From positions 1 to 36,836 of the forward strand of contig JAFLKM010000014.1 in NCBI GenBank assembly GCA_019163335.1: a stretch of DNA of 36,836 nucleotides. The letters are read 5' to 3'. This document shows, piece by piece, positions 7,861 through 21,857 of this stretch. The notes under the pieces are model-generated. The model ran no database searches. It was not told where the DNA came from and saw only the letters and a list, made by a program, of their open reading frames with translations. Position numbers and translations under genes: made by a program. Origin of the DNA: Desulfobulbaceae bacterium (lineage in GTDB: Bacteria; Desulfobacterota; Desulfobulbia; Desulfobulbales; Desulfocapsaceae). Positions within the stretch are counted from its first letter, which is position 1. Every line of letters begins with the position of its first letter.

Positions 7861-7915
7861 CATCATTAAATCTTTCAAATTCCTGTAGTTATGTATTTTT
7901 TACAGGTTATGGCAG

Positions 7916-7930: not shown

Positions 7931-8017
7931 AGACACAAGGGGCTGGACAAACCTTGCCAGCAGTCAAGATGCGCAGCCTCCTGCCAAAGCATCAGCAGCA
8001 GGGGTTTCAAGTCAATC

Positions 8018-8032
8018 AAGACAAAATGAAAC
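8018..8032 (+). promoter_or_regulatory. Enhancer dyad 2 of ADH1
   Basis: AAGACAAAATGAAAC is identical to dyad 2 of the AOR promoter (22245-22259). Its core starts 160 bp from the -24 element, against 159 there. Confidence 0.72.
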
Positions 8033-8049
8033 AACCTGCAGCCCGGTGT

Positions 8050-8064
8050 GAGTCAAATTGACTC
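8050..8064 (+). promoter_or_regulatory. Enhancer dyad 3 of ADH1
   Basis: GAGTCAAATTGACTC is the most symmetrical copy: both half-sites are GAGTCA/TGACTC with a 3-bp centre. Its core starts 192 bp from the -24 element. Outer bases GGTGT and ACACC (8045-8072) extend the symmetry. Confidence 0.65.
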
Positions 8065-8207
8065 GCAACACCAAGCCCGCGTGGACTGTATCCAGACAAG
8101 GGCTGTCAAATGGGAATGGATGGGGATTGAGGCTGAGCTGAAAGCGAGGAGAAAATGTTAGAAGGAAAAGGAAACGCTACGGACAGCAATTCAAAAAGCC
8201 TCTCGAT

Positions 8208-9455
8208 TCAAGGAAACAGAAGAACAGAGACCTCGATGCCCCGCCCCAGCCCCTCGGTCTCCTGCCCGATGGGGAGAAGGCCGTCGGCCCGAACCAGCGG
8301 GCTGAGCAGCCCAGACTTGCCGTACACGGCGGTAGCCAATGGCAAGGCTCCGTCTTCCTGGGGGCTGAGAGATACACGGACGTACTCTTCCCGACCAATG
8401 GCCGAGGGAAATGGCTGGGCGGTGACCGCCCTTACGGAACTCAGGCCCAGCGTTGCCCCAAGACCCGCGTAGTGGCGCAGCAGGGGCCGGACAAAGCAAT
8501 AAAAGATGACCATGGCCGAGGCGGCAGGCCCGGGCAGCCCGAACAGGGACTTATTCCCCTGACGGGCAAGGATGGCGGGCTTTCCAGGACGAACTGATAC
8601 CCCATGGGACAGCATTTGGCCTTGGGGGATGGCGGCGAAGACCTGGTGAGTAAAGTCCCGCTGACCTCTGGAGCTGCCGCCGGAGAGCAACAGCACATCC
8701 GCCTCTTCCATGGCCTTGGTGCAGACCTTAAGCAGACGGTCAAAGTCATCGCCGCAGATGCCGTGGGCAATGGCAATGCCCCCCGCCTCCTCCACTAAAG
8801 CGGCCAGGGTGGTGGAGTTGATATCCCGAATCTTGCCGGGGGACGGGGTCTGATCCGCCGGCACCAGTTCATCACCGGTGGAGAGGATCGCCACCCGGGG
8901 TCTGCGATAAACCGGAACCGATGTAATGCCAAGCCCCGAAAGCACTCCCAGATCCTGGGGCCGCAACCGGCTCCCCCGACTGAGCACCACCGCCCCGTGA
9001 GCATAATCCTCGCCGGCATGAATAATATTTTCTCCAGGTGCCACCGGCCGGCAAATCTCGACGGCTCCCGTCTCCTGGTGCCGGGTGACTTCAACCATGA
9101 CCACGGCATCAGCCAACTCCGGCAACGCGCCGCCAGTGGCAATGCGTGCCGCCTGACCAGGCTGCAGGGACAATTCCTGAGCGGAATCCCCCATGGCTAT
9201 TGCACCGATCACCGTCAGATGAGCTGCCTCCAACCCGGAGCAACCACAAGTGTCGGCGGCCCGGACGGCATAGCCATCCATGGTCGATCGAGAAAATGGC
9301 GGCAGGAGCTCAGCGCTGACCACCTCCGAAGCAAGGACCCGGCCCCTGGCCATTGCCAGCGGCACCATTTCAGAGGCCAGAGGAGTAAAACCGGCAAACA
9401 GGGAATTAAAATCAGGGGAACTTTTCAGTGGGGAAAAATCGTTCATACTCTCCAT
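8208..9455 (-). CDS. moeA: Molybdopterin molybdotransferase MoeA
   Basis: A 415-residue protein that inserts molybdate into adenylylated molybdopterin to complete the cofactor. Seen: LLPPFSRSTMDGYAVRAADT near residue 50-70, then GQAARIATGGALPELADAVVMVE, RPRVAILSTGDELV and DINSTTLAALVEEAGG, which are MoeA/MogA-family signatures. A C-terminal domain IV follows (REEYVRVSL, PLVRADGLLPI). It is the last gene of the minus-strand aldehyde-oxidoreductase series, so it may be dedicated to that enzyme. A start at 9446 (MNDFS) is also possible. Some genomes carry several MoeA paralogues, one for W and one for Mo, which the sequence does not resolve. Confidence 0.92.
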   Translation of the reverse strand: MESMNDFSPLKSSPDFNSLFAGFTPLASEMVPLAMARGRVLASEVVSAELLPPFSRSTMDGYAVRAADTCGCSGLEAAHLTVIGAIAMGDSAQELSLQPGQAARIATGGALPELADAVVMVEVTRHQETGAVEICRPVAPGENIIHAGEDYAHGAVVLSRGSRLRPQDLGVLSGLGITSVPVYRRPRVAILSTGDELVPADQTPSPGKIRDINSTTLAALVEEAGGIAIAHGICGDDFDRLLKVCTKAMEEADVLLLSGGSSRGQRDFTHQVFAAIPQGQMLSHGVSVRPGKPAILARQGNKSLFGLPGPAASAMVIFYCFVRPLLRHYAGLGATLGLSSVRAVTAQPFPSAIGREEYVRVSLSPQEDGALPLATAVYGKSGLLSPLVRADGLLPIGQETEGLGRGIEVSVLLFP

Positions 9456-9802
9456 GCCTGGAAAATGGCTCCTAGATAGCCACGGAGCCGAGAGGCCAGC
9501 GCCGGAACATCAAAAAACCGGCAACACCGGCAGCCAACATTCATTTCCGGAAAAGATACCATATCCACTTGACTGCGTATAGGACGAACTCAGCAAACGG
9601 GTTCAGGCTGGGTCTGTCTTCGCCAAAGCCCAAGGATAGAAATAGTTTTAGAGTAGAGGAAACAAAAAAACTGCATATCAGAGTTACGAATTCTACAGAC
9701 GTGAATCCTCGGGCCACGGTTTCTTTTCCAGTTCAGGGACTCAAGAACCGTCAAATATAAAGGGATTGCCTGAGGTGCCCGGCAGGCAGGGAGCTGATTC
9801 CA
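9456..9802. other. Intergenic stretch, no gene seen
   Basis: 347 bases between moeA and the phosphatase gene, the longest gap inside this series. I see no convincing ORF, no sigma-54 element and no copy of the enhancer dyad. A separate vegetative promoter for moeA could lie here, but I cannot point to one. Confidence 0.4.
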
Positions 9803-10405
9803 TCAACTCTTCCGATTGATGGCATCAACACACCAGCAGCCATCTTGCCAACGGATGATATTGAGACAGCAGTAGTCCTGGGGAATACACAGGAGTTCCG
9901 CCAGGGGGAATTCCTGGATCCGGGAGAGGAGCACCCGGTTGATCCCTGCATGGGCAACAATCAGCAAAGGGCCGGGATTATTTTCGACAAGTCCGGTGAA
10001 GCAGGGAACGGTCCGCTGGGCCAGATCATGAAAGCTCTCCCCGTCCGGCGGCCGAAACGATGCAATGGCCCTGCCCCGCTCCTCGTACTGACCGGGAAAG
10101 CGTTGCCGCACCTCCTCAACCGTCAGTCCCTCCCACTGCCCCAGACTGATCTCGGCCAGATCAGGAATGGATACAACCGGCTTGATCTGTCGTGCGGCAA
10201 TGAAGGAGGCGGTGTGCACGGCTCGGGCGAGAGGAGAGGAAAAGATGCGGGAAAAACGGATAGTCTCAAGGATCTGGGCCATCCTGAGAGCCTGAGCCTC
10301 TCCAGCAGGGGTCAGGGGCAGATCCTGCTGTCCGACAAAACGGCGGGGCTCGGTCTGCTCGATCTGACCATGCCTGAGGAGATAGATCTGTTTTCCACCG
10401 TGCAT
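9803..10405 (-). CDS. Histidine phosphatase family protein (CobC/phosphoglycerate-mutase-like)
   Basis: A 200-residue protein with the catalytic RHG motif at residues 11-13 (YLLRHGQIEQ), an Arg/Glu-containing core (FSSPLARAVHTA, LGQWEGL) and the second His in LIVAHAGINR. The layout is like alpha-ribazole phosphatase, but the natural substrate is unknown. It starts a few bases after the end of the nucleotidyltransferase-HD gene (ATG at 10405, stop of the upstream gene at 10408). In this neighbourhood it may remove a phosphate from a nucleotide or cofactor intermediate; that is inference from context. Confidence 0.8.
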   Translation of the reverse strand: MHGGKQIYLLRHGQIEQTEPRRFVGQQDLPLTPAGEAQALRMAQILETIRFSRIFSSPLARAVHTASFIAARQIKPVVSIPDLAEISLGQWEGLTVEEVRQRFPGQYEERGRAIASFRPPDGESFHDLAQRTVPCFTGLVENNPGPLLIVAHAGINRVLLSRIQEFPLAELLCIPQDYCCLNIIRWQDGCWCVDAINRKS

Positions 10406-10407
10406 AA

Positions 10408-11556
10408 TCAGGCCTCGGGATGGCAGCGACAAAGCAGATCGAAAAGGCTGCTGCCGGTTTCCTCTTCGATGGCTCTCAGCACTGTCCGGGCACCGAGCAG
10501 CCTTCGTTGAATGGCGGCACAGGCCTCAGGATCATTGGCATAGAGATCAAGCTTCTGCTGAAAACGCTCTTCGACCCTAACCAAGCTGCTCCCGGACACC
10601 ATCTTGTCGGCAAGAAAGACAATCTCTTTTTCGCAAACCAGAGCCCCCGGGAGATAGGTACTCTCCCGATGGGCGGCAACGATCTCGGCAGCCCGGTCAA
10701 AGCCCAGCTCAAACAGGCGGCGCCCTCCTTCCTGCTCATGACCGGGGCTGCCTTTGGCCATATCGTGCAGCCAGCCGCACACCCGGCAGAGCTCGCGATC
10801 CGGCGGCGGTGTCCGGGTCAGGGCGATCAGATCACAGATAGCCACAGCCAGCTCCGCGACCTTCTCCGCGTGCGCCAGCCCCCGGTCAGGCATGGGATAG
10901 ATATGGCGGATCAGCACCTCACATTCACCCATGCTGGGAAATTCCCTGACGGCGTTGCGAGCAAGGCCGTCTTGATACGCCTCCGGAGTATCCATATCAA
11001 AAAGGATGTTGGCATCAGGAACAAGGATGTCGCGAACCTGGGCGGGGCTCTCTGTTTCGACCGCAGCCAGAATCCCTCGCAGCCCATGGCTGCCGTCCCC
11101 CTGCACAATGGTCTGACAGAGGGACGTGGAGATCAGCGGTGGATGGCCTCGATCGCCTCCGTAAACCGGATAGATCAGGCGCGATGCCGAGGCCTCAAAG
11201 GCCCTGACCAGCAAGCGAACGGTGCCTTTGCGAATCAAAGGGATATCCACCGGCAGGAGAAAAAACCCCTTACATTCGGGAGAAAGGGCCCGCAAACCAG
11301 TGCAAATGGAGGAGAACATACCGAGGCCGAAGTCCGGATTGAACACCGCCAATGCCCCTGTCTTTCTTGCTGCCGGCGCAGTAACTCCGGCCTCGTGCCC
11401 GGTCACCACAATAACCTCAGAAACACCGCAGTCATGAAACAATTCAACGGCCTGTTCTAAAACGGTGTTTTCTCCCAGCGGCAGCATGGCCTTGCAGGTA
11501 CCCATCCGGGATGAGAATCCGGCCGCAAGGATGATGGCCGCGAGCTTCTCAGCCAC
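10408..11556 (-). CDS. MobA/MocA-like nucleotidyltransferase fused to an HD domain (DVU_1551 family)
   Basis: Two parts. Residues 1-200 have the MobA/MocA signature AAIILAAGFSSRMGTCKAMLP, then FFLLPVDIPLI and YGGDRGHPPLIS, so transfer of CMP or GMP to molybdopterin is the likely chemistry. The C-terminal part carries an HD-type metal-binding set (HAEKV, CGWLHDMAKG, AAHRES, FLADKMV), as in small HD phosphohydrolases. I chose the GTG at 11556 because it gives the usual MobA N-terminus and follows GGAAG; the frame opens further to a TTG at 11598. It overlaps the 3' end of xdhC by eight bases. D. gigas-type Mop uses molybdopterin cytosine dinucleotide, so cytidylyl transfer fits, but that is inference. 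Confidence 0.82.
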   Translation of the reverse strand: MAEKLAAIILAAGFSSRMGTCKAMLPLGENTVLEQAVELFHDCGVSEVIVVTGHEAGVTAPAARKTGALAVFNPDFGLGMFSSICTGLRALSPECKGFFLLPVDIPLIRKGTVRLLVRAFEASASRLIYPVYGGDRGHPPLISTSLCQTIVQGDGSHGLRGILAAVETESPAQVRDILVPDANILFDMDTPEAYQDGLARNAVREFPSMGECEVLIRHIYPMPDRGLAHAEKVAELAVAICDLIALTRTPPPDRELCRVCGWLHDMAKGSPGHEQEGGRRLFELGFDRAAEIVAAHRESTYLPGALVCEKEIVFLADKMVSGSSLVRVEERFQQKLDLYANDPEACAAIQRRLLGARTVLRAIEEETGSSLFDLLCRCHPEA

Positions 11557-12592
11557 GGCTTCTTCCGCGGGCGCGCTGCTGGATGAGTTCCGCCACAATG
11601 CTCACCGCAATTTCCTCCGGGGTATCCGCCTCAATGGGAAGGCCGATGGGAGAATGCACCCGGTCGAGCTGGGCCTGACTGGTGCCGCCTGCAAGCAGGC
11701 TGTTATAGATGGTATCGCGTTTTTTACGGCTGCCGATCATCCCCACATAGCCGGCCTCGGTGGCCAGGGCCTGCTTCAAGACCTCATAATCATGCATATG
11801 GCCCCGGGTGACGATGACGAGATAACTATCGTGATTGATCACATACTCGCTGAAACAATCGGTAAAAAAGGGAATCACCCGTACCTCATCGCTTGTCGGA
11901 AATCTCTCCTGGTTGGCAAATTCCTCCCGATCATCAATAACAATCACCCGAAAGCCAACCCTTGCTGCCGCCTCGGCAGTACAGGCAGCCACATGCCCCG
12001 CCCCGACCAGGAAGAGCTCCCCTGGTATGGAAAAATAGGAAATCAGATACTCCGCCGTGTCATGGGCAATGACGGTGGGACTGGAGGTGGAGGAACGGAC
12101 TTTTTTAACCGCAGCAAGCAGGGACTCGGGTACCGGGCCATCACTCAGCTGGCCTTTATCGTCCATAAGAAAGGGATGATCGTTGGGTCCCTTGCCGGTG
12201 AGTCTGCTCACCAGGGTAAGCCTGCGGCCCTTATCAAGGGCCGTGAGCAGGATTGTAAAGAGGGCCAGATTCTCGGCATCGGCGGGGATGTGCTCCAGAT
12301 AAATCTCCATATTGCCGCCACAGATCATGTCGGTGATGGCCGCATCGGCATTGGTCAAATCAAATTTTTTAGAGAAGGACTGTTTATGGGAAAAGGCCTT
12401 TTTGGCATCCTGGATGGCCACAGCCTCCACAAGACCGCCGCCGATGGTGCCGGCAATCCGCCCGTCCCGGCGAACCACCATCCTTGCCCCGGCCATTCGA
12501 GGGGCAGAGCCGGACTTGCCGCAAACCGTGACCAGCACCAGGTCTTCGCCCTCTGCAAGAAGAGTGCAGGTCTCTTTCATCAGTTTTTTCAT
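11549..12592 (-). CDS. XdhC family molybdoenzyme maturation protein
   Basis: A 347-residue XdhC/CoxI-family protein. The N-terminal part has VTVCGKSGSAPRMAGARMVV and GTIGGGLVEA. The C-terminal part is a Rossmann fold (ELFLVGAGHVAA, VIVIDDREEFAN, VIVTRGHMHDYEVL, YVGMIGSRKK). Family members bind the Mo cofactor, help add its terminal sulfido ligand and deliver it to xanthine-oxidase-type enzymes. The aldehyde oxidoreductase in the same series is the evident client. A GAGG ribosome site precedes the ATG; a second in-frame ATG lies four codons on. Confidence 0.9.
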   Translation of the reverse strand: MKKLMKETCTLLAEGEDLVLVTVCGKSGSAPRMAGARMVVRRDGRIAGTIGGGLVEAVAIQDAKKAFSHKQSFSKKFDLTNADAAITDMICGGNMEIYLEHIPADAENLALFTILLTALDKGRRLTLVSRLTGKGPNDHPFLMDDKGQLSDGPVPESLLAAVKKVRSSTSSPTVIAHDTAEYLISYFSIPGELFLVGAGHVAACTAEAAARVGFRVIVIDDREEFANQERFPTSDEVRVIPFFTDCFSEYVINHDSYLVIVTRGHMHDYEVLKQALATEAGYVGMIGSRKKRDTIYNSLLAGGTSQAQLDRVHSPIGLPIEADTPEEIAVSIVAELIQQRARGRSRG

Positions 12593-12638
12593 AATAATCT
12601 TTTTCCTCTTTTCTTCATGCTTACGCTCTTATTTATAT

Positions 12639-13940
12639 TTACGCCCTCTTCTCTTCGATGACCCGTTTTCCCGGCTGGATACGACCGCTCCCCTCCAGCT
12701 CAAGAGCAAAGGAGAGATCCTTGAGATCAGCAAGGCCTTGAAGCCTGGCTCTGACCTCCTGCAGGACGGTGTCCGCCTGGCCCGGGATCAGGGTAAGGCG
12801 AAGGCTGAGCTGGTCACAATTTGCGACCCGTTCTAAAACAGCCTGAAAATCGAGGATGCCCGGCACTGGCAGCAGGATCTCGTCCAGGTCGGCCATGGAG
12901 AGGTTGCAGCCATTTTTTAGCTCCCGCACCTGATTGATCCTGCCCCGGACCCGATCAAGCCGCCTGATGTTGCTGCCGCAAGGACAGGGGCCGGCATGGA
13001 GGCGGCCATAATCCCCGGTACGGTAGCGGATGAGCGGCATGGCCCGACGATGCAGGGTGGAAAAGACGATCTCGCCAAACTCCCCGGGCGCAAGTACAGC
13101 CCCTGTCTGCGGGCAGATTACCTCGAAAAAAAGATCCGTCTCGCGCAGATGGCAGCCGCTTCGAGCCTCGCATTCCACCCCGCCTCCAAGTCCGGTTTCC
13201 ACGGTGCCGTAGTGGCTGAAGACCTGACATTGCCAGAGCTCGCTCAAGACATGACAGGTCGCCTTCGAGATATAATCTGAACAGAGGAGCACGGATCGGA
13301 TCCGTCCCATATCAATCTTCAGGGCGGCGGCACATCGGGCGAGGGCCAAAATCTGAACGGGAAACCCGAGAATCACCTCACAAGGGTGGGCAACCAGTGC
13401 CTTCACCGCCTCAACCGGGTCTGCCACCAGGCCGTAAATATGACTGCCCACCTCCATTCTGGCAAGGCCCCGGGCGAGGAGATCACCTGCCGAATCCGGG
13501 GTCTTGCCCGGCAGCAGAATCAGCACACGTTCTCCGGAGGACACCAGGGGCTGCATGCCATGATGGAAAAAATCCAGGGTCTGTTCCAGATCGTCTTCAC
13601 TGAAAAAAAGACGTTTGGGGGCACCGGTGGTGCCGGAGCTCTGCATGGTAATGATACGGGCGACTTCATCCTGGCTGACACAAAGCATCTCTGCCCCATG
13701 CCCGCGCAATTCTTCCTCGCTGGTAAAGGGCAGCAATGCAAACATCTCTGCATCGACTTCATCCAGCCCGGAGATGGCCGCGAATTTTTCCCGGTAGAAA
13801 GGACTGTTCCTCGAGGCGTAGGCAACGGTCTCAGCCAACTTGTCCATCTGATAGCTGTGGATGGCGGCAAGGGACACAGGCTTACTGGAATCCACCCCCA
13901 GTTTTCCGGCGGTGAGACTCTCCAGGGGCGATATCTTCAT
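12639..13940 (-). CDS. PaaK-like AMP-forming ligase (DVU_1553 family)
   Basis: A 433-residue member of the adenylate-forming superfamily resembling phenylacetate-CoA ligase. Seen: phosphate loop MQSSGTTGAPKR, SHYGTVETG (A5-type motif), YRTGDYGRL and the C-terminal hinge near RVRGRINQ. A PCPCG pair of cysteines before the hinge is typical of PaaK-like proteins. The substrate is unknown. Its position in a Mo-enzyme maturation series, overlapping the radical SAM gene by four bases, argues that it activates a carboxylate for a modification step rather than serving catabolism; an acid-to-CoA step after aldehyde oxidation is the alternative. Confidence 0.8.
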   Translation of the reverse strand: MKISPLESLTAGKLGVDSSKPVSLAAIHSYQMDKLAETVAYASRNSPFYREKFAAISGLDEVDAEMFALLPFTSEEELRGHGAEMLCVSQDEVARIITMQSSGTTGAPKRLFFSEDDLEQTLDFFHHGMQPLVSSGERVLILLPGKTPDSAGDLLARGLARMEVGSHIYGLVADPVEAVKALVAHPCEVILGFPVQILALARCAAALKIDMGRIRSVLLCSDYISKATCHVLSELWQCQVFSHYGTVETGLGGGVECEARSGCHLRETDLFFEVICPQTGAVLAPGEFGEIVFSTLHRRAMPLIRYRTGDYGRLHAGPCPCGSNIRRLDRVRGRINQVRELKNGCNLSMADLDEILLPVPGILDFQAVLERVANCDQLSLRLTLIPGQADTVLQEVRARLQGLADLKDLSFALELEGSGRIQPGKRVIEEKRA

Positions 13941-15325
13941 GGGGCCTCCGCCATCCGGTAGAGGGAGCGGCCTTCAGTGGAGGTGAGATTATAGGCGCAA
14001 AAGGGAATCAGTTTTCCCTCAGGCGATATCACGTGGATGCAGCAGCCCTGGAGTCGTTCTAGATCCAGGTTCCAGGCATCCTGAAAGGCCATGCCGGAGA
14101 TGGAAAAACGATGGGTTTGCGCCCTCCGCAGAAAGATGTCCAGATCGTCCACGGATGCCGCCGGATCTACCGGGGCATCACACACATCGGGCGCGGCCCA
14201 TTGTCTGGCGGTAAAGGAGACGCTTTTGTCTCTGCCCTCCATGGCCGTGGGGAGCGGGTCGCAGGCATTTGAGGTTGAGCAGCAGGCCTGCCGACCGGCG
14301 CCCAAAGCCTGCAGGCTTCCGTCCGGCTGAAGGAGATAGTTGGCATGAAAGGAACAGAGGGCATGTTCACAGGCGGGCGGAGCAAAGTGCTCAGTGCGGA
14401 TCTCGCCTTCACACTGCCGGGCTAACTGCTCCATGATCTCGGGCAGGGTAATGCGATCCTGATCCAGGGGCGGGGCTGGATATCGGCCAAAATAGCTCAC
14501 CGGCTGAAAATGAACACCGCGGACCACAGGCGAGAAACGGGCCCCATACCTGACGATCTCACCGATCTGGCCGGTATTGATCCCCGGAATAATGGTGGGC
14601 ACCAGCACCACGCCAAGACCGGCGGCACCGCAATGGATAATGGCCTGTTCCTTAAGCGCCGCCAGTGCCTTTCCCCGGATGGCCTGGTGCACATCATCGC
14701 TGATGCCGTCAAACTGGAGAAAGACCGAAGCCAGACCTGCCTCCTGCAGACTGCGGGCATAGGAGGCATCCAAGCCCAGACGGATCCCATTGGTGTTGAG
14801 CTGGAGAAAGGAAAAACCCTTGCGCCGACCCAGCCTGATAATCTCGGCGAGATCGTCCCGCATGGTTGGCTCCCCGCCGGAAAGCTGGATATTGCAGGGT
14901 CCGCTGGCCCGCAGGATCTCGTCATAAAGCACAGAGATCCGGGCAAGGCTGGGATCCTGCCCGGACCCGCTGCCGGCATCGGCAAAACAGACCTTGCAGC
15001 GCAGGTTACAGCGGGCGGTGATCTCCAGGAGGGCCGTGCAGGTATGTTGTCCGTGCGCCGAACAGAGACCGCAATCAAAGGGGCAGCCCTTTTCCGTGAC
15101 CGCAACAGGGCTGCGCGGCGCCGAGGGTTTCTTGGGCCGCTGCCAGGAAGGCATGGTGATCTTACCCCGCCAGATACAGGTGCGAAACTCCCCGTGTTCC
15201 GGGCAGTTCTTTATTAAAAAGACCGCATCACCCTCCTGTCTCCTAACCGCCGCCAGGGCCTTCAGACAGACTGGACAGACGCTGCCGGTGTGGGCAAGGA
15301 TCTTGTGCTGGTGATCTTTGGACAT
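13937..15325 (-). CDS. Radical SAM protein with extra N-terminal cysteines (TrsS-like)
   Basis: A 462-residue radical SAM enzyme. The canonical cluster motif is C106-x3-C110-x2-C113 (CNLRCKVC). Before it come CPVC (17-20), CPEHG (41), CPFDCGLC (81-88) and HTC (96). This N-terminal pattern recalls the Tes/MoaA-like group and the family I know as TrsS, in which an N-terminal position is sometimes selenocysteine; all positions here appear to be Cys. More cysteines near the C-terminus (ACEHALCSFH, GCCIH) may hold auxiliary clusters. I chose the start at 15325 because the preceding gene ends at 15330 and the protein begins MSKDHQHK there. Its substrate is unknown; its neighbours suggest maturation of the Mo enzyme or its cofactor. 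Confidence 0.78.
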   Translation of the reverse strand: MSKDHQHKILAHTGSVCPVCLKALAAVRRQEGDAVFLIKNCPEHGEFRTCIWRGKITMPSWQRPKKPSAPRSPVAVTEKGCPFDCGLCSAHGQHTCTALLEITARCNLRCKVCFADAGSGSGQDPSLARISVLYDEILRASGPCNIQLSGGEPTMRDDLAEIIRLGRRKGFSFLQLNTNGIRLGLDASYARSLQEAGLASVFLQFDGISDDVHQAIRGKALAALKEQAIIHCGAAGLGVVLVPTIIPGINTGQIGEIVRYGARFSPVVRGVHFQPVSYFGRYPAPPLDQDRITLPEIMEQLARQCEGEIRTEHFAPPACEHALCSFHANYLLQPDGSLQALGAGRQACCSTSNACDPLPTAMEGRDKSVSFTARQWAAPDVCDAPVDPAASVDDLDIFLRRAQTHRFSISGMAFQDAWNLDLERLQGCCIHVISPEGKLIPFCAYNLTSTEGRSLYRMAEAP

Positions 15326-15329
15326 GGGT

Positions 15330-15773
15330 TCAGCCCCTGGGGCTACTCGGGTCAAGGCCATGGGCGGTCAAAATTTCCAGAATCCGGTTGCGTACGGCCA
15401 CGATGATCGCACCACAGCCCTCAAGCTCTTTGCCCTTGTCCTCTCCCAGGATCTCATCACAGGTAATGCCGCCCCAGCGATGCGACCCGGTCTGCTGGAA
15501 CCATTCCATAAATTCAGCCAGCATCAGCGGATAGCTGTCGAGCGCTTCGTCTTGACTACCGCCTGCCGCCCCATACAGGGCAAGGACACAGGCCCCGCCA
15601 CTTGCTGCGCCGCAGATCGAGCCAATCCCCACCCCATTGCAGAGCCCGGCCATGGCACGAACCAGCGGCACATTTTCTTCTCCCATGTCTTCCAGGGCCA
15701 GCTGGATCAGAATCTGACTGCAGCACAACCCTTGCGCGACGTGGTGCAGGATCCGTATAGAGGTGTCATCCAT
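15330..15773 (-). CDS. C-GCAxxG-C-C family protein (DVU_1555 family)
   Basis: A 147-residue protein with the spaced cysteines that define the family: GLCCSQ (17-18), MAGLCNG (45), ICGAASGGAC (54 and 62) and GITCDEILG. Such proteins are thought to be redox or metal-binding; some homologues carry selenocysteine in place of Cys. The start at 15773 directly abuts the methyltransferase stop at 15775. The frame is open further upstream, but that part reads through the methyltransferase gene and is not used. Confidence 0.82.
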   Translation of the reverse strand: MDDTSIRILHHVAQGLCCSQILIQLALEDMGEENVPLVRAMAGLCNGVGIGSICGAASGGACVLALYGAAGGSQDEALDSYPLMLAEFMEWFQQTGSHRWGGITCDEILGEDKGKELEGCGAIIVAVRNRILEILTAHGLDPSSPRG

Positions 15774-15774
15774 T

Positions 15775-16515
15775 TTAATCCTCTTTCTTTTGGGCGATAA
15801 GCAGGTAATATCCAAGCCGCGCACCCTGCAGGGCGCAGCAGGTTTCACGGGCCTCTTCCTGGCCCATGAACAGCTGCCAGAATGTTTCCAGGCTGCCGTA
15901 GCTGAAAATGATCTGGCCCGCCAGCTGTTTCAGGGAGGCACTCTGATCCTCGAGAACAAGAATTGAAAACCCGGCAGCCTCAACTGCCGCCGTAATTATC
16001 TCCAAGGGCAGTGAGCTGGTCACACAGCTGCGTACTGCAGGAATACCAGAATCCTCCGGCCCCGCAGTTTCCCGGCTGAAGATATCGGTGAGCACCAGTT
16101 TTCCACCCGGCAGCAGAATCCGCGCCATCTCCTTTAAAGTTTTCGGAATATCTCCGCTCAATGACAGAACGCACTCGCTGATAATACCATCAAAGCCGGC
16201 ATCCAGCACGGGAATGGCCATGACCTCGGCCTGTATCAACGGAACAGTAGGATTTGCCGACACAGCCTGTCTGAGCATGGAGGCGCTGCTGTCAAGGCCG
16301 ACAGGCCGGAGCTGAAAGCAGCCGGCCAGGAGGGTCAGGGTATGGCCCGGCCCACAGCCGAGATCAAGAATGGTCGAGCCCGGCGGCAGGCCGCTAAGCT
16401 CTATGGCCCGGGCAGTCAACTCCACCCCACCCGGTCGGAGCATTCCCCCGGTGAGATCGGATAATGCCTTCTGCTCATACAGGGCAAAGGGTTGACAGGG
16501 GGCCACAAGACTCAT
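15775..16515 (-). CDS. Class I SAM-dependent methyltransferase (DVU_1556 family, TrsM-like)
   Basis: A 246-residue protein with SAM-binding motif I TILDLGCGPGHT (about residues 48-59), an acidic loop VGLDSS, IISECVLSLSGD and LLPGGKLVLTDIF, the usual post-motifs of UbiE/ArsM-like enzymes. The C-terminal third contains a conserved Cys (ETCCALQGARLGYYLLIA). It sits between the small CxxC redox protein and the C-GCAxxG-C-C protein. What it methylates is unknown; its constant partnership with the radical SAM protein suggests a shared small-molecule or peptide substrate. Confidence 0.82.
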   Translation of the reverse strand: MSLVAPCQPFALYEQKALSDLTGGMLRPGGVELTARAIELSGLPPGSTILDLGCGPGHTLTLLAGCFQLRPVGLDSSASMLRQAVSANPTVPLIQAEVMAIPVLDAGFDGIISECVLSLSGDIPKTLKEMARILLPGGKLVLTDIFSRETAGPEDSGIPAVRSCVTSSLPLEIITAAVEAAGFSILVLEDQSASLKQLAGQIIFSYGSLETFWQLFMGQEEARETCCALQGARLGYYLLIAQKKED

Positions 16516-16527
16516 AAAGACGTGGCC

Positions 16528-16737
16528 TTACTTATCTTCGAGAAGCTGTTCCACGGCATGCATCTTGCCCATGGCAAGATCTTCCGGAATCAGGACAAAA
16601 CCACAGGTGGAGCAGACCATCAGCTCCACGGTGAAGACGGAGCCCATATAGCTCACGTTGACTTTTTCCGGCTGCAGCTCCTGATTGCAGGGGGCACAGC
16701 GCCAGGTGGTTTGGGAGATAAAAGAAAAGGTGCTCAT
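16528..16737 (-). CDS. Small two-CxxC redox protein (DVU_1557 family)
   Basis: A 69-residue protein with CAPC at 14-17 and CSTC at 42-45, a zinc-ribbon or rubredoxin-like knuckle pair. It could bind one metal or pass electrons to or from the large flavin/iron-sulfur protein whose gene overlaps it by four bases (16734-16737). Too short for firm functional assignment. Confidence 0.75.
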   Translation of the reverse strand: MSTFSFISQTTWRCAPCNQELQPEKVNVSYMGSVFTVELMVCSTCGFVLIPEDLAMGKMHAVEQLLEDK

Positions 16738-19040
16738 ACTTTTTTTCCTTCGGGCAGAATCATCCGGTGGCTATAGGCATTATGGACACGATAGCCGGAG
16801 TCAAGGACCTCATATTCAGCCCAGTAGGTCACCCGGACGGGTCGGTGGTTTGCCAGGCGGTGACCGGTCTGAGGATCTTCGAGAAACCTTCCGGATTGCT
16901 CGGCCTGGAGGATAACCTTCTGTAGGTCATCTTCGAGAATCAGCCTTTTCTCCATCAGCTCCCGGACCTGCGGGGCAATGGTCAGGACAACCTGTTTGTG
17001 CTCAGGGGCAAGGGCTGACGCTTCCTGCCAGAGAGAGGCCAGCAGCTGTTCCTTGAGGCGGGCCCGGTTCTCGTGCCTCCCCGAAAAGCCGGGATTGGCA
17101 CGCAGCAGCGGGTCAGCCTGATCTGCTGCCGGGAAACAATAGTCAAGCAGATGGGCCACCCGATGTCCCGAGGCCGCCAGGTTGTCACGACACATGGCAC
17201 AATAAGCGAGACTATCGAGGCTGCTGCGTCCGCCCTTACGCTCGGCCGCCTCTTCACCCAAGGGACCATTGACAAACTGCATCAGACCGCCAAAGCCGCA
17301 GCAGTCAGTCAGTTCGCCGGAAAAGGGTTGTTCAGCCACGCTCATCCCCAGTTGACGGACAATGTTCCGGACACTGGCACGAATTTCCGGTTCCTTGCGA
17401 ACCCCGCAGGGATCATGAATGGTCATCGGCTGGGACAACGGTGCCCTCTTCTCTTCAGGCAGGCCAGTTTCTTCCAGGATCTGCCAGAGGGAACGGAGCT
17501 GGAGTTCCGGGGCAAACTCTTTGAAGGTCGCATAACAGCTTGAGCAGGCAGTGATGATAAGCGGATTGCCGTTTTCTTGAATGATGGTGGAAAAATCCTC
17601 CATGGTAGCGGCAAAGAGCTCCTGCCGGCCCGACCAGTGCGCCGGGATACCGCAGCAGCCAAGCATCAGCCCCACCCCATCCTCGAGATGCCGGGTCAGG
17701 TGCAGATAGGTTTTCTCAACGAGATCCGGGGCCGAACCTGCCAGCTGACAGCCGGGATAGAAGAGATAGCGGCTGCTCGATTTGCCCGGCTGATGGCGGA
17801 ACATCGCCGCCACAGCACTGAGACTGAAGTCCATGTCCTGCAGGGCGAACTCATGGGCCGAGGGCGGCATGGTAGAGTCGAGCACCATGCTCTGCCTGGT
17901 GGTCAGGCAGACCTCAGCCATGGGAAACTGATGCGGACAAATGAGGGTGCATTGACCGCAGAGACTGCACGAGTTGATCATCGTGTTGGCGGTACGGGTA
18001 CCCTGGACAACGGCCTGATTGTTATAAATTTTTCTGACTAATGTTTTGGGGTACTCCTTAAATGTCTGCAGGAAGGCGCACTGCTTAACGCATTCCAGAC
18101 ATTGGCACTGCAGGCAGCGAGCCGCTTCGCCGGCTGCCTCCTGCCTAGTATAACCGGCAACGGGGTCAGCGGGCAGAATGAGGCTGAGGGGTTCAATGCC
18201 GGTGATATCGGTAAAGAGCCTGGTGGCACAGGCGCCCTCCCGCTCACGTTGGGCGGTGAGAGACACCTTCTGCAGATAGCGTTCGATGGAAAGGGCCGCT
18301 CGACGTCCCTCTTCGACCTGCTGTATCACCGAATAGCCGTCCGGGCCAGTGCCGCCGCCGGTGAAACAGCCGGGGCGGTCCACTTCCAGGGTCAAGGGAT
18401 CCGGATGGCGGCAATCCAGACAGAAATCATCAATGGGAGCCCAGTCCCGATCCATGAAGACCGCGTCATAATAGTTGAGGGTGTATTCGACGAACTCAGG
18501 ATCCATTTGGCAGTCAAAAATGATATTGACTCCGTAAGAGCCCAGCTGTTCCACGGCAGCATCAAGAACCGTCAGGGGCAGCCGCTCCTCCCCGAAATTT
18601 CGCAGGGACCCGCCGATCTCCCGGTCGGTGGTCAGGATGGTAGCACTGCGTCCCTTACGGGCCAGGTCCAGGGCCGCGATCATGGAGGCAAGTCCTGAAC
18701 CGAAGAACACCACCCTTCCTTCAAGCTCCGGCAATTTTGTAAGTTTGAGAACCACCGCCGTGCCGGTGACGCAGTGGCGTTCCAGGGAAGCCACGGCCAG
18801 TGGATCGCCTGCTTCCAGGCGTTTGCAGGCCTGACGGCATGGCTCATCACAGATTCGGCCAACAATATCGGCAAAGGGCATGGTGCGATCGAGCACCCGT
18901 CTGGCCCCGCGCTCATCGCCTTTGGCCAGACAGGCCATGAAGGTGCGAACATCAACATGAATGGGGCAGGCCGCCGTGCAGAAGGGCAATTCCTCCTGGA
19001 TGCATGTGGCTTCAAGGGTACGGAGCAGCTGTTGTTCCAT
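16734..19040 (-). CDS. Flavin and dicluster iron-sulfur oxidoreductase with CCG domains (DVU_1558 family)
   Basis: A 768-residue multidomain redox protein. The N-terminus resembles GltD/NfnB (CTAACPIHVDVRTF, GRICDEPCRQACKR), followed by an FAD/NAD-type Rossmann segment (VVFFGSGLASMIAALDLARKG) and TGGGTGPDGYSVI. Then come two ferredoxin-like motifs (CLQCQCLECVKQCAF and CSLCGQCTLICPHQFP) and two HdrD/GlpC-type cysteine-rich modules (YPGCQ with GCCGIPA; HDPCG with DCCGFGGL). About 100 C-terminal residues follow that I cannot assign. It is the likely electron acceptor of the aldehyde oxidoreductase, linking it to a pyridine nucleotide, ferredoxin or the quinone/thiol pool. That role is inference from the adjacent gene. 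Confidence 0.82.
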   Translation of the reverse strand: MEQQLLRTLEATCIQEELPFCTAACPIHVDVRTFMACLAKGDERGARRVLDRTMPFADIVGRICDEPCRQACKRLEAGDPLAVASLERHCVTGTAVVLKLTKLPELEGRVVFFGSGLASMIAALDLARKGRSATILTTDREIGGSLRNFGEERLPLTVLDAAVEQLGSYGVNIIFDCQMDPEFVEYTLNYYDAVFMDRDWAPIDDFCLDCRHPDPLTLEVDRPGCFTGGGTGPDGYSVIQQVEEGRRAALSIERYLQKVSLTAQREREGACATRLFTDITGIEPLSLILPADPVAGYTRQEAAGEAARCLQCQCLECVKQCAFLQTFKEYPKTLVRKIYNNQAVVQGTRTANTMINSCSLCGQCTLICPHQFPMAEVCLTTRQSMVLDSTMPPSAHEFALQDMDFSLSAVAAMFRHQPGKSSSRYLFYPGCQLAGSAPDLVEKTYLHLTRHLEDGVGLMLGCCGIPAHWSGRQELFAATMEDFSTIIQENGNPLIITACSSCYATFKEFAPELQLRSLWQILEETGLPEEKRAPLSQPMTIHDPCGVRKEPEIRASVRNIVRQLGMSVAEQPFSGELTDCCGFGGLMQFVNGPLGEEAAERKGGRSSLDSLAYCAMCRDNLAASGHRVAHLLDYCFPAADQADPLLRANPGFSGRHENRARLKEQLLASLWQEASALAPEHKQVVLTIAPQVRELMEKRLILEDDLQKVILQAEQSGRFLEDPQTGHRLANHRPVRVTYWAEYEVLDSGYRVHNAYSHRMILPEGKKV

Positions 19041-19072
19041 TCTTGAATATACGAAGGCTGAAGATTAAGGGA

Positions 19073-19110
19073 AATCAGGGGAAAGCCGGATCGCCGGTTT
19101 TCCCCTGATT
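19073..19110 (-). terminator. Strong hairpin between the aldehyde oxidoreductase and its downstream genes
   Basis: Twelve-base perfect arms (AATCAGGGGAAA with TTTCCCCTGATT) enclosing a further CCGG/CCGG pair. On the minus strand TTTCCCTT follows, a weak U-run, so partial termination or 3'-end protection of the AOR message is likely. Confidence 0.65.
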
Positions 19111-19139
19111 GTTGCGTGTAAATGAATGGATGGAAGCGA

Positions 19140-21857
19140 TTATTTCTTCAAGGCAGCAAGAACTTTCTCCGGCAGGGCCGGCAGTCTTCTGATACGGGCG
19201 CCGCAGGCATTGTAGATGCCGTTGATAACCGCAGCATGGGGACAGGTCAGCGGCAGCTCACCAACCCCGGATGCCCCAAAGGGACCGTCAGGACGGGGGG
19301 TCTCCACATAAATCAGTTCCATATCGTCGGGAATCTGCTTGATATAGGGAAATCCTGCCCCAACCATGGTGGAGTGTTTCTTGATATCTTCAAAGTCTTC
19401 CGTCAAGGCCAAGCCGATGGCCTGGGCCATGCCGCCGTACAACTGACCATCCACCACCAGCTTATTAACAATCTTGCCGACGTCGGCAACACAGGTCATT
19501 TTCTCCACCGTTGTCTTGCCGGTGGCAAGCTCAACGGCCACTTCCGCCATGAACAGACCATACATATAACAGCAGAAGGGATTTCCCTGGCCGTTTTCAT
19601 CACAGTTGCCGGCCGGCGCCGACCACTTGCCATTGACCTTGGTGGGAATGTTTTCGGCAACCATCTCTACAAAGGAACGGAAAGTTCCGTCACTTTTCTG
19701 CATGGATTTGACCAGTTCCTCACATCCAACCCGGATGGACTGTCCCACCACCACCTGACTGCGGCTGCCGCCGGCGGGGCCGGAGTTGGGGCAGGTGGAG
19801 GTATCATTCATCACCAGTCTGATCTGGGCGGCAGTGATGCCCAAAGGTCGCAGAGCCTCATGGGCGGTGCCCAGGGTACCCATGTCAGCACCCTGTCCGT
19901 GGTCTTCCCAGGTGTTGTAAATGGTCACGGTGCCGTCGGCATTCAGTCCGACAACGGTTTCGGCAGTATCCGGGCCATCCAAGCCGCAACCATAGACCCC
20001 AAGGGCAATCCCCACTCCCCGTTTGACCGTATCCGTTGAAGCAGCGGCGGTCTTCTTTTTGGCCTCTTCATATTTGGGGCGCAGCAGGGTCAGCATCTCA
20101 GGCAGAGAATACACCTCGGGATCCTGACCGGTGGGGGTGGTGGCACCTTTCCGGTAGCAGTTTTTGAAGCGCAGTTCAAGGGGATCCATGCCCAGTTTTT
20201 CCGCCAGCTCATCCATAAGAACCTCGGAGGCAAACTCGGACTGGGGAGAACCGTATCCACGGAATGCAGACCCCCAGGCATGGTTGGTGCAAACGGTGCG
20301 GCCTTCGCCACGGATGTTTTTGATATCATAGCCGGCACCGATGAACTGGGCACCACGCAGGGTGAGCAAATCACCAAATTCCGAATAGGGCCCATGATCA
20401 ACCGACCAGTCGGTCTCCATGGCCTGCAGCATTCCATCCTTGTTCGCCGCCATCTTTACATTCATAAAGAAAGGCGAACGCTTGCCGGTATAGGTCTGCT
20501 GCTGGAAATAATCGTAACAGAGAAAAACCGGACGCTGGGTGGCAATGGCGGCGGCACCGACCAGGGCTTCCATGGTCGGACTGAACTTATAACCAAAGGT
20601 GCCACCGGCATTATTCTGCACCAGCACCAAATCCTCAGGGGCCACACCCAGGCCCGGGGCGATCATGTAGAGGTGGAGATGAACACCGATGGATTTGGAG
20701 TGAATAACCAGTTTGCCCTCATCGTTATAATAGGCAAAACCGACATCGGGCTCAATGGGCATATGCGGTTGACGGCCCACGTAATAATCACCTTCCATGA
20801 CCACGTCGGCCTTGGCAAAAATCGGGGCGGTTTCCTCACCCTTGGCAATCTTCTGGATATAATAGATGTTTGGGGTGCCGGGATGGATCTCAAGGGCATC
20901 CTGCTCCATGGCAGCCGGTGCGCTCATATAAGCCGGCAACTCTTCCAGCTCAACCTTGACCATTTTTGCGGCTGCCTTGGCATGTTTTTCGGTGTCGGCA
21001 CAGACGATGGCAATGGCGTCGCCAAATTGAAAGACCTTTTCATCGCAGAGAATGGGCCGATCCCAGCCGTCGCCCTTATTGGAGGGGAAGGTGATAAGCC
21101 CGGTGATGCGATTCTTGCCTTTGATATCCTTGGCGGTGACTACCTTGAAGACACCCGGCATCTTTTCGGCCTCGGTGGTGTCGACGGAGAGGATATTGGC
21201 GTGGGAAACCTCTGCCTGAACCAGGGCCATCTGGAGGGTGTTATCGGGCAGCTGAAGACCACGGTCAGCACCGAAGTCCCAGGTTCCCGTGACCTTGGCG
21301 GCAGCACTGGGGCGAGGCATGTTGGTGCCGAAGACTTTGCCGTCAGCGGGAATTTTATAGGCCAGATCCTTGAGCGTGAGCTCACCCTTCAAGACCTTGG
21401 CCGCATCCTGCACCGCATCCACCAACTGCTTGTACCCGGTACAACGACAGGCGTTGCGATTCTTCTGAAACCAGTCACGAATCTCTTCCCGGGAAGGATC
21501 ACCATTGCCGTCGAGCAAAGCCTTGGCCGACACGATAAATCCTGGAGTACAGAAACCGCACTGGGCACCACCATGGACCATCCACGCCATCTGGATGGCA
21601 TGCAGGTCAGTGGGGGTACCTATCCCCTCAATGGTGGTCACGGCAGCACCATCGGCCACCTTTTCCATCTTGGTGACGCAGGAACGGGTTAGTTTTCCAT
21701 CCACGATAACACTACAGGCACCGCACTGTCCCTTACCGCAACCGATTTTAGTCCCGGTGAGCATCAGTCTCTTGCGCAGGACTTCCGCCAGGCTCTCATC
21801 CGCTTCCACGACAAAGTTTCTTTCAATACCATTAACGTACAGTTTCTTTTTAATCAT
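19140..21857 (-). CDS. mop: Molybdenum aldehyde oxidoreductase, Mop type
   Basis: A 905-residue xanthine-oxidase-family enzyme (aldehyde plus water to acid, two electrons out). The plant-type [2Fe-2S] cluster has C40, C45, C48 and C60. The second cluster has C100, C103, C137 and C139; the spacing is as in D. gigas Mop. The Mo domain shows GGTFGYKFSPTMEAL, AFRGYGSPQ, PAGGSRSQVVVGQS and the catalytic Glu in GASGVGELPL. There is no FAD domain, so electrons must leave through the iron-sulfur clusters to an outside protein. The start is the ATG at 21857, with GGAG eight bases ahead; an in-frame TTG lies four codons upstream. It is transcribed from the sigma-54 promoter at 22073-22088 with a leader of about 200 bases. 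Confidence 0.95.
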   Translation of the reverse strand: MIKKKLYVNGIERNFVVEADESLAEVLRKRLMLTGTKIGCGKGQCGACSVIVDGKLTRSCVTKMEKVADGAAVTTIEGIGTPTDLHAIQMAWMVHGGAQCGFCTPGFIVSAKALLDGNGDPSREEIRDWFQKNRNACRCTGYKQLVDAVQDAAKVLKGELTLKDLAYKIPADGKVFGTNMPRPSAAAKVTGTWDFGADRGLQLPDNTLQMALVQAEVSHANILSVDTTEAEKMPGVFKVVTAKDIKGKNRITGLITFPSNKGDGWDRPILCDEKVFQFGDAIAIVCADTEKHAKAAAKMVKVELEELPAYMSAPAAMEQDALEIHPGTPNIYYIQKIAKGEETAPIFAKADVVMEGDYYVGRQPHMPIEPDVGFAYYNDEGKLVIHSKSIGVHLHLYMIAPGLGVAPEDLVLVQNNAGGTFGYKFSPTMEALVGAAAIATQRPVFLCYDYFQQQTYTGKRSPFFMNVKMAANKDGMLQAMETDWSVDHGPYSEFGDLLTLRGAQFIGAGYDIKNIRGEGRTVCTNHAWGSAFRGYGSPQSEFASEVLMDELAEKLGMDPLELRFKNCYRKGATTPTGQDPEVYSLPEMLTLLRPKYEEAKKKTAAASTDTVKRGVGIALGVYGCGLDGPDTAETVVGLNADGTVTIYNTWEDHGQGADMGTLGTAHEALRPLGITAAQIRLVMNDTSTCPNSGPAGGSRSQVVVGQSIRVGCEELVKSMQKSDGTFRSFVEMVAENIPTKVNGKWSAPAGNCDENGQGNPFCCYMYGLFMAEVAVELATGKTTVEKMTCVADVGKIVNKLVVDGQLYGGMAQAIGLALTEDFEDIKKHSTMVGAGFPYIKQIPDDMELIYVETPRPDGPFGASGVGELPLTCPHAAVINGIYNACGARIRRLPALPEKVLAALKK

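Follow-up and report, generated by a model that had tools for sequence, protein, structure and literature searches.

Four enzymes encoded with a Mop-type aldehyde oxidoreductase may serve its HdrB-type electron-transfer partner

Introduction

Why should the operon of an aldehyde oxidoreductase (AOR) also encode a radical SAM protein (TrsS), an ArsM-like methyltransferase, a PaaK-like ligase and a C-GCAxxG-C-C protein? The question is raised by the window, the whole 36,836-nucleotide stretch of Desulfobulbaceae DNA analysed here (contig JAFLKM010000014.1). A sequence-only reading of it had stated that these four enzymes have no known role in Mop biogenesis and had proposed that they may make a modified cofactor, a labile selenium or sulfur donor, or a small metallophore.

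The families themselves are already known, and so, probably, is their neighbourhood, since several of the NCBIfam models that recognise them are named after DVU_1551-1557; the model names, from which the DVU numbers used here are taken, assign the four unexplained proteins no role. That reading placed the Desulfovibrio vulgaris neighbourhood at DVU_1551-1558; the available part of one paper (PMC10920352) gives DVU_1559 as Aor. Judged by the model names, the genes are present in D. vulgaris, a species that is tractable in the laboratory. Literature searches by DVU number and family name returned no account of the cluster, and the literature searched, with Haft and Tolstoy 2025 (cited in the accessible text of the review PMC13188914) outside its coverage, gave no role for the four enzymes, as the earlier reading had it. 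The accessible main text of a D. vulgaris fitness paper treats the tungsten AOR DVU1179, and DVU155x genes are absent from it (PMC10102598).

Results

The eleven-gene AOR series is genuine. As had been claimed, positions 8208 to 21857 contain eleven open reading frames, all of them on the minus strand. Consecutive genes overlap or are separated by no more than 99 bp, apart from a 347-bp gap ahead of moeA, whose membership of the series is the least certain. Nine of the eleven proteins pass dedicated NCBIfam cut-offs (bits scored/curated cut-off in brackets below). The series begins with the 905-residue Mop-type AOR (19140-21857; NF045668, 1705/1100), whose ATG at 21857 is preceded by TTGGAG and which matches PDB entries 1dgj and 1sij over nearly its full length. 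The flavin/dicluster protein DIC, a four-part fusion (16734-19040; NF045663, 989/530) whose C-terminal domain we call DICC (16737-17048), is followed by a 69-residue two-CxxC zinc-ribbon protein of the DUF7479 or DVU_1557 family (16528-16737; PF24292; NF045645, 102/60). Next are the ArsM-like SAM methyltransferase of the DVU_1556 family (15775-16515; NF045667, 220/155) and the C-GCAxxG-C-C protein of the DVU_1555 family (15330-15773; PF09719; NF045669, 149.5/103), which likely starts at an ATG at 15773 behind AAAGAGG within a frame open up to 15848. TrsS (13937-15361, with a later start possible at 15325; NF045646, 682/490) and the PaaK-like adenylate-forming ligase of the DVU_1553 family (12639-13940; NF045666, 445/300) complete the unexplained set.

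The remaining genes encode an XdhC-family AOR maturation factor (11549-12592; NF045664, 429/350), a fusion of a MobA-like nucleotidyltransferase with an HD domain from the DVU_1551 family (10408-11598; PF12804 and PF01966; NF045665, 410/315), a CobC-like histidine phosphatase (9803-10405, in a frame open up to 10432; PF00300; TIGR03162 just below its cut-off, 150.5 against 162.9 bits) and a MoeA-type molybdotransferase (8208-9455), which has all three MoeA Pfam domains (PF03453, PF00994, PF03454) and scores below the MoeA equivalog cut-offs. The XdhC, MobA-like and MoeA families do explain molybdenum cofactor handling, as previously suggested.

The association of this AOR with the methyltransferase is far beyond chance: Among 492 sampled genomes, drawn evenly and some of them incomplete, all 29 that have a Mop-type AOR also have the methyltransferase. 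These comprise 20 of 20 in the sample of 247 genomes from the home phylum (19 over the cut-off plus G104, whose AOR is divided between two contigs) and 9 of 9 in a second sample, from the class Clostridia (Fisher p = 7e-24 and 1e-16, respectively, values which are overstated by related genomes). Full-length DIC over its cut-off occurs in exactly the 20 AOR genomes of the home-phylum sample. Conservation of the association, put forward earlier on the basis of one organism, is borne out across many lineages. The phylogenetic profile that had been proposed as a check gives a divided answer: AOR never occurs without the methyltransferase, but AOR is absent from 7 of the 36 genomes with the methyltransferase, and 7 of the 27 core-bearing genomes in the home-phylum sample are without AOR. 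The genomes of loci L111, L129 and L148 likewise have the core genes, and a search at E ≤ 1e-100 found no AOR in them. This goes part of the way towards the refutation that the earlier reading had set for itself, namely the unexplained families being widespread without AOR.

Within 8.5 kb downstream of 62 AOR genes, at loci mostly chosen through TrsS, we found DIC 62 times, the CxxC protein and the methyltransferase 61 times each, TrsS 60 times, and the C-GCAxxG-C-C protein and the ligase 58 times each. The named loci are the best 80 of at least 581 TrsS relatives, are skewed to complete cassettes and have sufficient flank in 48 of 80 cases. Exceptions outside the count are L162 and L163, which have AOR, DIC and CxxC genes only, and L063, which has AOR alone. 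Single members may be missing elsewhere: TrsS was not found in the G241 assembly, where AOR, DIC, methyltransferase, C-GCAxxG-C-C protein and ligase are present; G208 has no C-GCAxxG-C-C protein over the cut-off; and G361 has an AOR fragment below the cut-off adjoining a cassette whose methyltransferase falls under the search threshold.

The arrangement in G350, a single contig with three AOR genes, separates two groups of genes. Two of its loci consist of AOR, DIC and CxxC only and the third is a full cassette, and a genome-wide search covering the methyltransferase and AOR returned one methyltransferase match. Because the AOR-DIC-CxxC unit is repeated and the methyltransferase is not, the latter acts in trans. 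In G252, G255 and G257, TrsS is encoded at a distance from the AOR cassette. In G371, G417 and G439 a second methyltransferase adjoins a second AOR, which would be superfluous for a freely shared product.

The AlphaFold model of DIC (pLDDT 92, pTM 0.85) predicts a GltD/Nfn-like FAD module (residues ~1-331), a dicluster ferredoxin, an HdrB-like twin-CCG module (~423-651) and the C-terminal domain. In this model residues 1-331 match Nfn/Stn and residues 423-651 match HdrB (7bkb_B, Z 16.9 over 219 residues; 5odc_B, Z 16.3 over 222). Both CCG motifs are complete (C431, C462-463, C499 and C502; C545, C580-581, C614 and C617) and invariant in 26 sequences. DIC shares its predicted modules with HdrB/HdrABC and Nfn/StnABC and differs from them in several respects: its modules are fused into one chain, it seems to lack the NAD(P)-binding insert, it has the extra DICC domain, and it is encoded next to AOR. 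Disulfide reduction is not a property of every CCG protein: the structural matches include EtfD and LutA.

DICC is predicted to adopt a RelE/BECR-like fold: most of the 50 listed matches are RelE/ParE/YoeB/HigB-type or other BECR nucleases, at a best Z of 7.5, which is only moderate (below 8), and Foldseek alone returned nothing at E ≤ 0.001. The two-CxxC family profile matches YgiT-type proteins (hhalign 95.5%, E 1.4e-8); the L041 member exceeds TIGR03831 (24.0 bits against 20.2 needed) and the window protein has no match to it. Gene order, the predicted DICC fold and the YgiT-finger-like CxxC protein resemble DUF4258/YgiT toxin-antitoxin pairs. Two features set it apart from those pairs, namely that DICC forms part of an electron-transfer protein and that it falls under the DUF4258 cut-off: the hhalign match is weak (41%, E 2.8e-4, five sequences), and of two separate DICC frames scanned against Pfam, L054 gave E 0.07 (13.9 of 25 bits) and L041 no match.

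DICC is the constant companion of the core genes at AOR-less loci: It is present at all 11, in ten of them as a separate frame of 84-99 residues. Other core neighbours in AOR-less genomes are double-cubane-like, NuoF-like, fumarate-reductase-like or corrinoid-activator-like genes. G039 and G108 have the core and DICC and gave no DIC match at E ≤ 1e-60, so not every genome with the core has an HdrB-like client. A DsrK-like gene near the core at L045 was rejected as a partner, as it is missing in the close relative L056.

The four enzymes resemble, and depart from, characterised families. The methyltransferase retains both C-terminal substrate cysteines of the ArsM type, as judged by alignment to L150, a protein over the ArsM cut-off (the fused frames L151 and L152 were not counted). 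In PDB searches with the methyltransferase, other methyltransferases ranked ahead of the ArsM chains in one listing, and a second listing had no ArsM chain. C115 is kept in all 69 AOR-linked sequences and in all 10 AOR-less ones, and C164 in fractions of 0.80 and 1.00, respectively. In contrast to ArsM, it has lost the N-terminal GCG cysteine and scores far under the ArsM cut-off (69 of 263 bits). The radical SAM CxxxCxxC cysteines of TrsS (C118, C122 and C125) are invariant in 14 sequences and kept in at least 93% of 97. Its family profile matches tetraether lipid synthase Tes (7tol) over positions 5-312 (E 3e-128); this N-terminal two thirds is alike, whereas the C-terminal third is unmatched and the score against the Tes model is 346 bits of 450 needed. 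The ligase scores 122 of 646 bits against the PaaK model, passes NF045666 instead and retains the conserved positions of its own family.

Selenoprotein candidates were rejected: TGA is absent within the TrsS, C-GCAxxG-C-C, ligase, CxxC and AOR matches. For TrsS, the search covered the window and the 118 loci L032-L149, of which not all have TrsS, and gave no TGA lying 8 or more residues inside a match. The read-throughs that did turn up, one in the methyltransferase and three in DIC/DICC, sit close to where a match ends (L115, L140) or run from one gene to a separate one (L042, L043). Residues specific to core-linked AOR were also sought: 57 positions separate 47 high-scoring AORs from 5 low scorers, too large a number, with too small an outgroup, to be interpretable.

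Discussion

What might the four enzymes do? We tentatively favour a two-tier scheme in which the HdrB-type partner DIC depends on a factor that they make or install. The first tier would be the structural unit of AOR, DIC and the CxxC protein: AOR would oxidise aldehydes and pass electrons through the FAD and iron-sulfur centres of DIC to the twin-CCG HdrB-like site, with the small CxxC protein probably docked on DICC. The second tier, able to act in trans, would consist of TrsS, the methyltransferase, the ligase and usually the C-GCAxxG-C-C protein, and would synthesise such a factor, or put it in place, for electron-transfer proteins of the DIC/DICC type. The simplest such factor would be a small soft-atom redox compound of thiol, selenol or metalloid type, turned over at the HdrB-like site, while the ordinary molybdenum cofactor would be matured separately by XdhC, the MobA-like protein and MoeA. 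The scheme draws on the core without AOR, DICC at every AOR-less locus, the strict co-occurrence of AOR with the methyltransferase and with DIC, the single methyltransferase of G350, the separately encoded TrsS, the HdrB-like module, the ArsM-type cysteine pair and the plain cofactor of D. gigas AOR. Counting against it are the core-bearing genomes without a DIC match (G039, G108), G241 without TrsS and G208 without a C-GCAxxG-C-C protein over the cut-off, the second methyltransferases, the CCG proteins that are not disulfide reductases and the in vitro use of flavodoxin by D. gigas AOR; nor was any sulfur-inserting enzyme recognised in the gene set. That TrsS, the methyltransferase and the ligase build an undescribed small sulfur, selenium or arsenic redox cofactor for twin-CCG HdrB-type proteins outside methanogens, with AOR as one of several feeders, is a bolder version that we consider rather unlikely.

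Alternatively, TrsS and its partners could act on a residue in DIC/DICC, in the CxxC protein or in AOR itself as a dedicated post-translational maturation, with no free small molecule made. Small accompanying proteins are a frequent client type of radical SAM maturases, and DICC is small and constantly beside the core; the strict co-occurrence of AOR and methyltransferase and the paired second copies in G371, G417 and G439 also fit. Across 16 DICC sequences, however, Y79 is the sole invariant residue and no Cys is invariant, one methyltransferase serves three AOR units in G350, and protein maturation does not usually involve an acid-activating ligase or an ArsM-like methyltransferase. We regard such maturation as unlikely.

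A metabolic route seems quite unlikely. Here a carboxylate from AOR, or from a TRAP transporter at AOR-less loci, would be activated by the ligase and then processed further by TrsS and the methyltransferase. The route would suit the intact ligase positions, the iron alcohol dehydrogenases on either side of the window operon and some of the AOR-less neighbours: L140 has the TRAP permease DctM (over its cut-off) and a fumarate-reductase-like flavoprotein adjoining the core, homologous TRAP and RACo-like genes occur at L049 and L054, and L041, L043 and L129 have double-cubane-like proteins and an activase homologue. Against it, the core is constant while neighbours vary by locus, several of these neighbours match only under model cut-offs, and catabolism with two SAM-consuming enzymes is costly.

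The original proposal, that the set provides a modified cofactor, a labile selenium or sulfur donor or a metallophore for AOR itself, draws on the co-occurrence in 29 of 29 genomes and on the XdhC, NTP transferase and MoeA-like genes nearby, but fares poorly against the core genes without AOR and what is known of AOR. By homology to 1dgj and 1sij and by its Pfam domains, the window AOR would carry Mo-MCD and two [2Fe-2S] clusters, and the D. gigas and D. desulfuricans enzymes (1vlb/1sij and 1dgj) belong to the same subfamily over nearly their full length. According to the available part of PMC10223205, D. gigas AOR, used as a structural model for xanthine oxidase, has a plain pyranopterin cytosine dinucleotide with an oxo ligand, the sulfido ligand being unnecessary. 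The idea of a modified cofactor or sulfur or selenium donor is weak because these crystallised subfamily members have the ordinary cofactor, and 1dgj shares 93% identity, over 311 N-terminal residues, with the AOR of L134, whose cassette has all four enzymes. Furthermore, related AORs that score under the cut-off occur in G033, G184 and G237, where a search at E ≤ 1e-30 gave no methyltransferase match and the surrounding 20 kb (L064-L066) contain no core genes. We consider this proposal quite unlikely as well.

That an ArsM-like methyltransferase set shields AOR against arsenite and other metalloids, as the ArsM-type cysteine pair and the arsenite inhibition of D. gigas AOR (PMC10223205, available part) might suggest, is hardly credible given the core without AOR, the missing N-terminal cysteine and no arsenic regulator or pump among the subset of window genes scanned.

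Flavodoxin accepts electrons from D. gigas AOR in vitro in published work without DIC (PMC10223205, available part), whereas the operon points to a specific partner, the Nfn/HdrB-like fusion. This analysis is the source of what is said here on the AOR-less occurrences, the HdrB module and the single-copy arrangement, which Haft and Tolstoy 2025 may or may not also describe. The four enzymes accompany the AOR subfamily in nearly every sampled genome, and other oxidoreductases seem to use them too. A cofactor, if that is what the set makes, would give sulfate reducers, acetogens and gut Clostridia a new carrier.

The operon and its surroundings

The window is contig C32 of an assembly that has 103 contigs and totals 3.2 Mb. 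The eleven minus-strand genes that the sequence-only reading had laid out from 21857 to 8208 were borne out by the open reading frames and their coordinates. Each has Pfam and NCBIfam matches, and nine of the eleven proteins exceed the cut-off of a dedicated NCBIfam model. The names of these models include the DVU_1551, DVU_1553, DVU_1555, DVU_1556 and DVU_1557 families, "XdhC family aldehyde oxidoreductase maturation factor" and "radical SAM (seleno)protein TrsS". Curators have therefore already noticed the neighbourhood. The literature searched returned no paper with the DVU family names; TrsS is listed as a selenoprotein family in an excerpt of a 2026 review, which cites Haft and Tolstoy 2025 (PMC13188914). 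The closest named relative of the window's TrsS, among the matches listed, is from a Desulfurivibrio MAG (67% identical, L070).

Genes for ModE and ModABC (molybdate regulation and uptake; 1462-4948, plus strand) lie near the operon's end. The operon is flanked by genes for an iron alcohol dehydrogenase (6583-7797, minus strand) and an ErcA-like iron alcohol dehydrogenase (22738-24018, plus strand), the latter beside an AtoS/AtoC-like two-component pair (24015-26548, plus strand); some of the matches for these surrounding genes are under model cut-offs. The arrangement fits an island that oxidises alcohols and aldehydes and has a molybdate supply of its own. In 23 loci there is a MoeA-like gene of ~345 aa (locus L033, 16009-17046, and homologues), in most cases immediately upstream of AOR; it is distinct from the moeA that closes the eleven-gene series in the window.

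Co-occurrence of AOR and the core enzymes

Among 247 genomes of the home phylum, the Mop-type aldehyde oxidoreductase (AOR) scored over its cut-off in 19, or 20 counting G104, where it is split over two contigs; the full-length flavin/dicluster protein (DIC) was over its cut-off in the identical 20. The radical SAM protein TrsS exceeded its cut-off in 25 genomes and the ArsM-like methyltransferase was found in 27 at E ≤ 1e-30 (24 over cut-off). Those 27 also have the PaaK-like ligase, scoring at least 287 bits and in 25 of them exceeding its cut-off; the next score down is 240 bits. These 27 core-bearing genomes are the 25 with TrsS together with G039, which has TrsS in two pieces, and G241, in whose assembly no TrsS was found. 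All 21 genomes with the C-GCAxxG-C-C protein over cut-off are among them. The G241 locus (L161, contig C51) is a natural exception, reading AOR, DIC, methyltransferase, C-GCAxxG-C-C protein and ligase.

A second sample covered 245 genomes of the class to which a Clostridiaceae genome belongs; nine of them have the methyltransferase, and the same nine have an AOR over cut-off. Fisher p values for AOR against methyltransferase are 7e-24 (home phylum) and 1e-16 (second sample), and overstate independence because the genomes are related. G033, G184 and G237 hold AOR relatives below the cut-off (793-832 bits) and gave no methyltransferase match; no core gene was found in the fetched 20 kb around these relatives (L064-L066).

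The tie that had been proposed between the unexplained families and Mop-type AOR thus holds in one direction: none of the 20 home-phylum AOR genomes is without the methyltransferase, and seven of the 27 core-bearing genomes (G039, G075, G108, G125, G131, G152 and G212) have no AOR. This AOR subfamily was not found apart from the core, and the core does occur without AOR, a one-sided dependency.

Loci with the core enzymes but no AOR

We examined eleven AOR-less loci (L041, L042, L043, L045, L049, L054, L056, L111, L129, L140 and L148). No AOR was found at E ≤ 1e-100 in the genomes of L111 (Dehalococcoidia), L129 (Chloroflexi) and L148 (Methanomassiliicoccales), and the genome of L140 has AOR relatives below the cut-off only. 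The neighbours of the core differ between loci: double-cubane-like proteins with an activase in L041 (homologues in L043 and L129), a NuoF-like gene in L129, a fumarate-reductase-like flavoprotein with a TRAP permease in L140, a RACo-like activator with TRAP-type genes in L054 (homologues in L049) and a weak methylcobalamin:CoM methyltransferase relative in L148. Four kinds of these matches (double-cubane, NuoF, fumarate-reductase and methylcobalamin) score below their NCBIfam cut-offs. The constant element, present in 11/11, is DICC, the last ~90 residues of the window's DIC (16737..17048, minus strand), which stands alone as a small ORF in ten loci and lies inside a 151-aa ORF in L148. The two-CxxC protein was labelled in eight of the eleven, as many as hold the iron-sulfur/CCG part of DIC. 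G039 and G108 gave no DIC match at E ≤ 1e-60.

An enzyme unit and a set that can act in trans

From the best 80 of at least 581 TrsS relatives, we took the 48 loci with at least 9 kb upstream and at least 3 kb downstream of TrsS. These contain DIC and the ligase (43 each), the methyltransferase (41), AOR (39), the C-GCAxxG-C-C protein (34) and the two-CxxC protein (32), and 22 have the exact order AOR, DIC, two-CxxC protein, methyltransferase, C-GCAxxG-C-C protein, TrsS, ligase.

G350 (genome given as 4.0 Mb) has three AORs over cut-off on a contig of 4,044,777 bases: one lies in a full cassette (L164), and two (L162 and L163) lie in AOR-DIC-CxxC loci from which the four enzymes are absent. 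The genome gave one methyltransferase match for the three AORs. AOR cassettes also occur without TrsS in G255 (L176) and G257 (L173), and in G252 TrsS is absent or a fragment in L170 and L172, with L171 cut by the contig end; in each genome a TrsS gene lies elsewhere (L128, L125 and L092). The single methyltransferase of G350 and the placement of TrsS away from AOR cassettes indicate that AOR-DIC-CxxC behaves as an enzyme unit and that the remaining enzymes can act in trans. Free sharing of the product is harder to reconcile with G371, G417 and G439, where AOR and the methyltransferase are both present twice and the members of each pair share a contig or lie no more than a few kb apart.

Modules of DIC and the DICC-CxxC pair

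The predicted structure of DIC is confident (pLDDT 92, pTM 0.85; 26 sequences). Its residues 1-331 resemble flavoproteins of the Nfn/Stn and GltD types (9bov_A, Z 31.4 over 294 aligned residues). This alignment spans 306 residues of the model and 502 of the chain, so DIC appears to lack the NAD(P)-binding insert. In the same predicted model, residues 423-651 match HdrB (7bkb_B, Z 16.9; 5odc_B, Z 16.3), and both CCG motifs are invariant in the 26 sequences. This suggests disulfide or related chemistry at the HdrB-like site; EtfD and LutA are also among the structural matches to this region, and the EtfD match makes disulfide-type chemistry uncertain.

For DICC (model pLDDT 86), most of the 50 matches listed are chains with the BECR fold, among them the RelE/ParE/YoeB/HigB types (best Z 7.5); Foldseek with this model returned nothing at E ≤ 0.001. 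The family of the two-CxxC protein (16528..16737, minus strand, 69 aa) aligns with YgiT-type fingers (hhalign 95.5%, E 1.4e-8), and DICC aligns weakly with DUF4258 (hhalign 41%, E 2.8e-4). Five DUF4258 genes (L153-L157; G047 and G132) are each followed, in the same order, by a gene for a zinc-finger-like protein; in L154 and L156 this protein has CxC as its second cysteine pair. We lean modestly towards DICC-CxxC being a toxin-antitoxin-like (DUF4258/YgiT-type) pair reused as a protein contact.

Features of the methyltransferase, TrsS and ligase

ArsM families are the nearest curated relatives of the methyltransferase outside its own model (68.8 bits for the window protein, 113.5 bits for the L041 member). 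All 79 aligned members have C115; C164 occurs in every AOR-less member and in 80% of those linked to AOR. Aligned to an over-cut-off ArsM (L150), the two coincide with its NCVxNL and CxGGA cysteines, which bind As(III) in ArsM; the N-terminal GCG cysteine of ArsM is absent. With the ArsM-type pair kept, the methyltransferase active site may, judging from sequence, accept a soft atom.

Positions 5-312 of the TrsS profile align with tetraether synthase (E 3e-128), and the SAM-cluster cysteines of TrsS are conserved, as are many others. Across 89 ligase sequences, 29 positions, including C257, C319 and C321, are conserved to 93% or more. A large open ORF in L151 (G000, contig C51; 1-3267) seemingly joins radical SAM, ArsM-like (NCVINL) and cysteine-rich C-terminal parts, and L152 is similar. 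L061 has three clustered TrsS/Tes-like radical SAM ORFs (7519-12087), with no AOR in the stretch.

Proposed role of the core enzymes

The window AOR matches 1dgj and 1sij along nearly its whole length. According to an excerpt on the D. gigas AOR, that enzyme has a pyranopterin cytosine dinucleotide, does not need a sulfido ligand, is inhibited by arsenite and uses flavodoxin as in vitro electron partner (PMC10223205); it is at most 79% identical to any fetched AOR over the compared 314 residues. The AOR of L134, whose cassette has all four enzymes, is 93% identical to 1dgj over 311 N-terminal residues. The plain D. gigas cofactor, this match inside a full cassette and the AOR relatives without the core argue against the earlier suggestion that the four enzymes may supply AOR with a special Mo cofactor.

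Given the one-sided dependency, the constant DICC, the HdrB module and the arrangement in trans, the simplest reading, which we hold with moderate confidence, at a little under even odds, is a predicted role in which the core enzymes serve DIC/DICC-type electron-transfer proteins, for which the four would make or install something.
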